The position numbers and the translations under genes are program-made. The notes under the pieces were generated by a model. That model was given only the letters and a program-made list of their open reading frames with translations. It did no database searches and was not told the DNA's origin. From a bacterium (GTDB lineage Bacteria; Bacillota_I; Bacilli_A; RF39; UBA660): 6,455 bases of DNA. This document shows positions 4,585-5,763 of this stretch, piece by piece (within the stretch, counting starts at the first letter, position 1; the number at the start of each line of letters is the position of its first letter). The stretch is from the NCBI GenBank assembly GCA_004560915.1, contig SFTR01000088.1:1-6455 (forward strand), in the 5' to 3' direction.

Positions 4585-4597
4585 GTAAAAATACGAG

Positions 4598-4616
4598 TTG
4601 CTTCCAAGCAATTTTT
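4598..4616 (+). other. Short dyad at the element right end (attachment-site arm or weak terminator)
   Basis: TTGCTT (4598-4603) and AAGCAA (4606-4611) form a dyad around CC, followed by TTTTT. It lies 14 bases after the recombinase stop and just before spoIVA homology. It may be part of the recombinase attachment site, whose arms are usually imperfect inverted repeats, or a weak terminator for the recombinase transcript. The loop is too tight for a strong terminator, and the crossover dinucleotide cannot be fixed without the left end. Confidence 0.4.
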
Positions 4617-4620
4617 AAAA

Positions 4621-5763
4621 ATAAAATTAGGTATCACAAAAACACCTTGGTATGACGAAGAAATTCCTTTTATGGAAGCTGCTGAGATTGGAACTGAAAA
4701 AGTCATAAAAGATCATGCTACCATCGGAATCGTTATGACAACTGATGGCTCATTTGGTGAGTTTACTAGAGGAGAAATAACCAGTACTGAAGAAAAAGTT
4801 ATAACTGAACTTAAAATGATTAATAAACCATTTATTGTTGTTTTAAATACGACTCATCCTGAGAAAGAAGAAACTAGAAATTTAGCTAAAAGTTTAACTG
4901 ATAATTACGATGTTCCTGTTCTTCCTGTCAATGTAGATAAAATGACAGAATTAGATATGTATGAAATTTTAAAAACTGCCCTATATGAATTTCCAATTTT
5001 AGATATTGAAATTAATATTCCATCATGGGTTCATAGTTTAGCAAATAATCATCCAATTAAAGAGGAATATCTAACAAAATTAAGAGAGAGTATGGACGGA
5101 ATAAGCAAACTTAAAGATGCTGAAAATATAATTAATTATTATAAAGACAGTAAATATATATCTAAAGCCTATATTTCTAATGTCAACACATCTAATGGTG
5201 TTGTAACTTTAAATTTAGATTCATCAAATGAATTATATAATGAAACATTAAAAGAACTTCTTGGCGGAATATCATTAACCAAAGGTAATTTACTTAAAAT
5301 ATTTATGGATTACTCAAGCGGTAAAGATGAAATATCCAGTGTTAAAGATGCTTTAAAAATGGCTAAAGCAACAGGATATGGTATTGTTTATCCAAGCTTA
5401 TCAGATATGAAGCTATCTACTCCAGAAATTATTAAGCAAGGTTCTAAATATGGTGTTAAGTTAAAAGCCCTAGCAAGTTCAATTCACTTAATGAAAGTTG
5501 ATGTAGAAAGCACATTCGAGCCTATAATTGGAACTGAAATGCAAAGTAAAGAATTAATAAACTATATAATGAAGGATTATGAAAAAGATCCATCAAGTAT
5601 TTGGAAAAGTGAAATATTTGGTCGAAGTTTAGATGTCATTGTTAAAGAGGGAATAGAAGCTAAATTATCAATGATGCCAGAAGCAACTAGATATAAATTA
5701 TCTAACACAGTAACTAAGATAGTTAATAAAGGATCAAATAATTTAATAGCTATAGTTTTATAA
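4621..5763 (+). pseudogene. spoIVA: Stage IV sporulation protein A, 5'-truncated by the element
   Basis: SpoIVA is the ATPase that polymerizes on the forespore outer membrane in the mother cell and forms the base of the spore coat, anchored by SpoVM. The open frame runs from 4585. Family sequence is recognisable from the TPWYDEEIPF motif (4642-4671) through AAEIGT.KVI, the TTDGS motif, ALYEFPIL, PSWV, DALKMAKATGYGIVYPSLSDM, KVDVESTFEPIIGTE, SIWKSEIFGRSL and the final LIAIVL. From TPW to the end there are 373 residues, matching the length of the same part in the roughly 492-residue B. subtilis protein. Missing are about 115 N-terminal residues with the Walker A and B motifs. ATG 4672 has no ribosome site and is not a believable start. 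The reading frame is otherwise intact, which suggests a recent split or one repaired by excision. The terminator follows at once. Confidence 0.93.

Follow-up and report, generated by a model that had tools for sequence, protein, structure and literature searches.

Elements with a large serine recombinase interrupt spoIVA at a single codon in uncultured gut Bacilli and may be excised from it during sporulation

Genes described as split by excisable elements in sporulating bacteria include sigK, spoVFB, spoVR, spsM, kamA, gerE and yabG (PMC5595907, PMC10747680, PMC5025042, PMC4191935, PMC6957869). The skin element, which interrupts sigK in Bacillus subtilis and Clostridioides difficile, brings together a sporulation gene of the mother cell, a large serine recombinase and a short core, and its excision restores the reading frame; in C. 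difficile a 53-aa recombination directionality factor (RDF) sets the mother-cell timing of the event (PMC5025042, PMC10747680). The full prophages SPbeta, in spsM, and phi3T, in kamA, reversibly split further mother-cell genes with rdf under a sporulation promoter (PMC4191935, PMC6957869), and in SPbeta the genes and site follow the order rdf-int-attR (PMC6957869). Two other cases are gin, a 28.6-kb intervening element of non-phage type with three recombinases that lies in gerE of Bacillus cereus ATCC10987 and of some B. cereus and B. toyonensis strains and relies on a serine recombinase with an extra factor (PMC5595907), and the prophage-like yin, reported from the single strain Clostridium botulinum V73, where the mother-cell gene yabG houses a serine recombinase and a candidate RDF (PMC10747680). 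Neither the excerpted texts of these articles nor those of four further ones (PMC13141910, PMC10868615, PMC13228054, PMC3789822) name spoIVA as a target, and among the matches listed from the open-licence PMC literature we found no report of it in that role.

We describe here a spoIVA locus that shares several of these attributes. The window, by which we mean the whole 6,455-nucleotide stretch of DNA that was analysed, comes from a host that we take to be RF39-like; it begins inside an element and runs through its right end into spoIVA and the genes beyond (Table 1). An initial annotation had placed the truncated spoIVA 36 bases behind the recombinase and put the loss at about 115 N-terminal codons; both figures have to be revised, as 63 nt separate the recombinase stop (4582-4584) from the TGG with which spoIVA homology resumes, and an NCBIfam search aligns the remainder to positions 122-492 of the 492 in TIGR02836, leaving 121 codons missing. 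What remains is intact, as had been stated, with 371 codons open from codon 122 to the natural stop.

Table 1. Features of the window (positions in nucleotides from its first letter)
Feature	Position	Strand	Evidence or remark
Small cargo protein, unknown family	181..609	-	ORF without a match in Pfam, PHROG or NCBIfam; shared with the near-identical G070 element
Cargo regulator of Xre type (HTH_3)	596..1099	-	Pfam PF01381, E=2e-14
Small cargo protein	1282..1548	+	ORF; no match in Pfam, PHROG or NCBIfam
Cargo HTH_36 protein	1803..2117	+	PF13730, E=2.6e-10; full-length resemblance to phage replication initiation families (PHROG)
Cargo protein, 139 aa	2268..2687	+	No match in Pfam, PHROG or NCBIfam
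Sigma-E/K-type -10 box CATAAAAT	2736..2743	+	27 nt ahead of the small ORF; CATANNWT in relatives
Small protein, 60 aa, candidate recombination directionality factor	2763..2945	+	Conserved N-terminus, position
Large serine recombinase	2949..4584	+	Resolvase, recombinase and zinc-ribbon domains (PF00239, PF07508, PF13408)
Exact 49-bp tandem duplication	4239..4336	+	Copies 4239-4287 and 4288-4336; breaks the recombinase frame
Right arm of attachment site GGTATCAC	4630..4637	+	Conserved ahead of the core in relatives
TGG crossover core	4648..4650	+	Trp codon of Thr-Pro-Trp; end common to both spoIVA halves
spoIVA 3' part: ATPase remainder, middle and C-terminal domains	4648..5763	+	PF09547 (118-237), PF20438, PF20439

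At the outer edge, bases 1-20 of the window are unalignable to otherwise near-identical elements, and the contig end may differ there from the true element. On the far side of spoIVA, a zinc-ribbon protein gene (5866-6171, minus strand) lies between spoIVA and a gene for a collagen-like protein with GPTGPTGPRGPQ repeats, the latter starting at about 6306-6319 within the stretch 6267-6455; judged by eye, the genes downstream of spoIVA in the genomes G001, G005, G013 and G014 differ from these. The collagen-like protein may be a spore-surface protein, and the gene is preceded by AC-N17-CATAAACTA, which resembles a sigma-K promoter; the combination points to a sporulating host.

Three recombinases used as queries against GTDB genomes recovered 33 loci, in 29 of which the spoIVA 3' part directly follows the recombinase, so that the pairing of a serine recombinase with an N-terminally truncated spoIVA on the same strand, as first noticed in the window, is a recurrent one. 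In the other four loci the contig ends too early, and two of them (L033, L056) still display the element end and the TGG. At the loci of recombinases of 41-45% identity, in contrast, spoIVA was found in 0 of 11 (flanks of up to 1.5 kb). The most distant of the 33 loci, L059 (58% identity), likewise has spoIVA behind the recombinase, and its label, Tissierellia, indicates that the subfamily is not confined to one family; the NCBI labels of the carrier loci are mostly Bacilli, along with Bacillales, Tenericutes and others. A sample of 385 genomes from the order yielded no fewer than 18 recombinases of near-full length with identities of 65-100%, a lower bound since three candidates were scored per genome, plus a partial one in G026; the identities then drop across a gap to 45%. 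Of 395 genomes in a class-wide sample, three, all from the same family, contain the subfamily at E <= 1e-160. As for viruses and plasmids, nine loci in IMG/VR encode related recombinases of 29-38% identity, and the named phage and plasmid records hold no relative at 60% identity or above. The nearest named relatives are large serine recombinases of the TndX/TnpX type from mobilizable and conjugative transposons (TndX on Enterococcus plasmids at 35% identity, and TnpX as the best PDB sequence match), from which the present subfamily is set apart by its site specificity for spoIVA; SprA (PDB 9dxh) is a distant match (E=5.5e-23).

Protein-level searches point in the same direction. Among 120 short SpoIVA proteins listed of 4088, a sorting rule assigned a non-native, element-type tail directly behind the Trp to 81; at least five of them proved on inspection to be native or frameshifted spoIVA, and the true number is nearer 76. 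One truncated SpoIVA (P0119) and a recombinase of 56% identity (P0229) probably share a single contig of 1,027,008 bases.

All inserted junctions that we saw fall on the TGG of a conserved Thr-Pro-Trp in spoIVA, which puts the split within the ATPase domain, at about position 121 of 237 in Pfam. Eight elements can be seen from end to end, and the seven analysed measure 3,141 to 13,801 bp; unlike gin, the spoIVA elements thus span 3.1-13.8 kb when seen whole and occur in many genera. Their ends have the form GGTATCAC-15-TGG-14/15-GTGATACC, an inverted arm pair around the core. Such a pair is the expected form of the attP of a large serine recombinase. The left-end arm GTGATACC is present in complete relatives, with GGTATCAT in its stead in L039 and L049. 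A separate contig, L186 (G188), bears a spoIVA 5' half with the divergent element end GGATACCCC in place of GTGATACC and with other cargo, which is possibly a third type of spoIVA element; by eye, the start of its SpoIVA resembles that of P0001, a protein of the window's lineage.

When the two halves are joined in silico at the TGG, they form one frame of 491-515 codons plus stop in all six testable elements, in agreement with the expectation of the initial annotation that the frame would be restored across a shared core and comparable to the in-frame restoration seen on skin excision (PMC5025042, PMC10747680). The seventh element (L039) is open across the join and is cut short by contig ends, and the eighth (G187), which stands outside the join count, has both halves open on one contig. 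The halves are also well preserved individually. After 13 duplicates and three loci cut short are subtracted from 53 rows, 36 of the remaining 37 3' halves have their full length (367-371 codons), among them three whose contigs start at the core, and the 5' halves reaching the core are open in 21 of 21 distinct cases, L052 being without an ATG at the usual start. The lone short 3' half, in L030, stops at 312 codons; it lies beside a full-length recombinase (L030:7391-8330; L030/G359) in what is possibly a decaying carrier.

The 5' half, which had been expected to the left of the element, lies on the same contig in eight elements and elsewhere in the assembly in others. Of 291 genomes sampled from the family, 256 match spoIVA; 27 with a weak or partial match were picked for a second look, of which 15 have element sequence immediately past the core of the 5' half, and together with the nearest genome, G001, this makes spoIVA split in at least 16 of the 256. 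In G001 itself, one contig ends with ATPase positions 1-112 and another carries 120-237. Elsewhere in the nearest genus both halves lie on one contig in G005 (13.8 kb apart) and G013 (3.5 kb apart), the 3' half stands alone at a contig end in G004 and G014, and G015 has an uninterrupted junction at a contig edge. A second intact spoIVA, which had been named as the mark of a decayed copy, is not listed in G001, G005, G013 or the 15 junction-bearing genomes, these being metagenome-assembled genomes (MAGs) of 68-96% completeness. Relatives without the element are readily found: spoIVA is intact in 12 of the 18 genomes of the nearest genus.

Both states also seem to occur within single assemblies. 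The assemblies of G020 and G208 break exactly at the TGG, where one contig stops with the 5' half and another starts with the 3' half, as is to be expected if both forms are present, because an assembly graph must fork when inserted and empty forms share a sample. G158 likewise has a 3' contig starting at the TGG, together with another contig on which the gene is joined, the overlap being identical at 141 of 141 bases. At these three breaks the element itself was not seen adjoining. The forked assemblies suggest that inserted and empty forms coexist, a pattern that mixed strains would equally give; the breaks may be likened to yin, of which inserted and excised states are described side by side in the excerpted text (PMC10747680). 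No attP junction of a circle turned up in 386 genomes of the family and no credible one in IMG/VR, where the sole pattern match (L063) is an unrelated phage contig that we take as chance.

We consider it probable that the window represents the right end of an integrative and likely mobilizable element that targets one codon of spoIVA and whose excision, timed to the mother cell, rejoins the gene. The large serine recombinase would insert a circle at the TGG of Thr-Pro-Trp, as the junctions in many genomes indicate, and thereby leave a P-loop-bearing 5' half and a 3' half of 371 codons, so that neither would hold a whole ATPase. With the protein of 34-68 aa encoded upstream, the recombinase would then reverse the reaction, join the halves in frame and free a circle; the role of the small protein and the release of the circle are predictions. 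Excision would take place in the mother cell, where SpoIVA is required and from which no progeny arises, and the forespore would retain the inserted element. Outside sporulation the element would pass between species by mobilization, as suggested by a MobV relaxase and by identical elements in distant hosts.

The proposed timing draws on the region ahead of the recombinase. An ORF of 34-68 codons precedes the recombinase in the relatives, and although its product has no Pfam, PHROG or NCBIfam match, the first ~27 residues are conserved in 13 of 13 aligned loci, including the most distant, L059. It sits where SPbeta has rdf, the order of small ORF, recombinase and attachment site matching the rdf-int-attR of that prophage (PMC6957869), and by this analogy it is probably the excision (recombination directionality) factor. 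For the promoter check we used 34 loci, leaving out L042, L061 and L062, and a pattern located the small ORF in 32 of them. CATANNWT was present upstream in all 32, at 27-33 nt in 31 and at 52 nt in L059, although these sites stem from only about three independent lineages; the two loci missed by the ORF rule, L040 and G064, have CATAGAAT and CATACAAT, respectively, in the printed sequence. The same motif occurs in 5% of shuffled sequences, ahead of 9 of 127 control ORFs of at least 150 aa, and at 41 of 52 spoIVA starts (in a window 8 nt wider). According to the excerpted account in PMC3789822, spoIVA is under sigma-E control, and sigma-E and sigma-K recognize very similar -10 but different -35 sequences; no convincing -35 (ATA or AC) could be defined for the small-ORF promoters. 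The conserved sigma-E/K-type -10 box thus lends indirect support to sporulation control of the operon of small ORF and recombinase, and its likeness to the box of spoIVA itself leads us to infer that excision would fall in the mother cell.

The window's own copy has to be considered apart from the family. Here the recombinase frame is lost after residue 447 through the 49-bp duplication, whereas the relatives encode 529 residues, and the duplication is absent from the elements of G001, L030, L031 and L045, four relatives at ~99.6% identity (99.6% over 4.27 kb for G001). Between the right arm and the TGG the window has 10 nt against 15 nt in these four, and the native-looking ACACCT ahead of the TGG is found in the window alone, the others having CAGGTCATAC. 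Furthermore, identity of the window's spoIVA to that of the hosts of these four elements is only 54-61%; across other carriers with full-length 3' halves it is 54-66%. The repeat and the altered arm together suggest that this copy is damaged or mis-assembled, and the duplication is possibly an assembly artefact. There is accordingly an even chance that the window is a chimeric or damaged copy, uninformative on its own about programmed splitting: the exact repeat would be the unmerged overlap of two contigs, and the attachment arm would have been joined to native spoIVA at a short shared stretch. Against such a chimera, both anomalies could be genuine mutations, and split C-terminal SpoIVA proteins are known independently in the window's lineage, namely P0003 (392 aa, 87% identity, with the canonical element leader) and P0002 (363 aa, 95% identity); the lineage also has an intact SpoIVA, P0001 (492 aa, 95% identity), which has no match among PDB sequences at E <= 1e-5. 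A verdict of this kind would concern the window only and is compatible with a targeted element that is excised in the mother cell. The earlier proposal that spoIVA is split and rebuilt on excision consequently has support for the family, where 5' halves exist and all six frames are restored, but not for the window copy, with its broken recombinase frame, its aberrant attachment arm and a 5' half that would lie beyond the window, which begins inside the element; as that copy looks damaged or mis-assembled, the case for a programmed split rests on the family.

With respect to the family itself, a clearly less probable reading, although one to be taken seriously, is that the element is a site-specific parasite of spoIVA free of developmental control, which is excised at random or under stress so that only a few element-free cells sporulate. 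The mobility of the elements accords well with it. Across 29 loci the identities of recombinase and spoIVA are uncorrelated (Mantel r=0.10, a value reached or exceeded in 186 of 2000 permutations; r about zero within each of two groups), and the window's recombinase, in its first piece, is identical to those of G001, L031 and L045, the corresponding spoIVA 3' halves sharing 56-75%. We hence rejected vertical descent of a long-standing resident comparable to skin. In G285, the left-hand portion of the long, window-type element encodes a Mob_Pre (MobV) relaxase (PF01076, E=3.4e-29) and is 97.9% identical to that of G070 over 4.4 kb; behind the relaxase, G285 has cargo consisting of a metal-responsive repressor (PF02583) and a heavy-metal P-type ATPase (L183:5339-8081), and G070 has different genes at that place. 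The 3.1-5.2 kb elements show by eye no relaxase among their ORFs and carry one cargo gene that varies, such as that for a Fic-domain protein at L026:5154-6197; by eye, the cargo in L049, L051 and L062 includes AAA-type ATPase-like and DnaJ-like proteins. By their relaxase and cargo, the elements seem closer to integrative mobilizable elements than to prophages. No phage structural genes were found among the window's proteins (Pfam, PHROG), in which regard the locus differs from SPbeta and phi3T. Mixed strains under such a parasite would explain the assembly forks, and excised forms of yin are described at all time points in the excerpted text of PMC10747680. What speaks for developmental control instead is that the sigma-E/K-type -10 box has been kept ahead of the small ORF in three recombinase lineages.

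The same observations qualify the comparison with skin made in the initial annotation, which is apt in so far as a mother-cell gene is split by a recombinase-carrying element, but not with regard to the nature of that element, which moves horizontally and is apparently mobilizable rather than a resident prophage remnant. The spoIVA element differs from skin in its target, in the MobV relaxase of its long type and in its movement between hosts, and its excision would be the counterpart of an established one. From yin it differs in recurring across many genera of one family.

It is improbable that these are dead insertions in lineages giving up sporulation, with the split spoIVA a decaying pseudogene. 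Sporulation has been lost repeatedly in related orders, as far as the excerpted text of PMC10868615 goes, 35 of the 291 family genomes lack a spoIVA match, the window's recombinase is frameshifted and the L030 3' half is truncated. Decay is nevertheless hard to reconcile with the open frames in nearly all the 3' and in all the distinct 5' halves, and with the 18 near-full-length recombinases from the order, which are free of internal stops; the window's is the sole frame break among the aligned recombinases of the 33 loci. In the genus of G001, the median dN/dS is 0.049 for split 3' halves (6 pairs) against 0.053 for intact genes (66 pairs; one intact gene, L011, and the undecided G004 left out), which fits continued function and equally well recent insertion, and it counts as weak evidence because the insertions may be recent and dS is near saturation. 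SpoIIR is present in 19 of the 20 genomes listed as split or forked and in 10 of the 12 intact ones. In C. difficile, SpoIIID co-controls skin excision; here it scored above the cut-off in only 10 of the 20 and in 7 of the 12, respectively, a point against the proposed developmental control of excision. Finally, that the halves act as separate polypeptides and need no rejoining is very improbable, for although both are open and an internal ATG could start the 3' half in some hosts, the break falls within the ATPase domain and the relatives normally have the intact gene.

So far, programmed splitting is known for a small number of genes from cultured members of Bacillus, Geobacillus and the clostridia; the element described here would add spoIVA, whose product is the ATPase underlying the spore envelope. 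In a wider reading, which we regard as evenly poised between true and false, fast-moving mobilizable elements have made spoIVA their obligate target across a family of uncultured gut Bacilli, with their exit timed by a mother-cell sigma factor; a host could then not delete the recombinase without losing its spores, and the element would hold sporulation hostage. According to the same reading, some elements have been reduced to about 3 kb, comprising the attachment sites, one cargo gene, the excision factor and the recombinase. Given elements that are nearly identical across widely differing hosts, a fixed target codon and versions of ~3 kb, the reaction should be easy to rebuild in a laboratory Bacillus. 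The carriers are uncultured gut bacteria with small genomes, between whose genera the elements jump, and for those who annotate such genomes a missing or truncated spoIVA need not signal the loss of sporulation.
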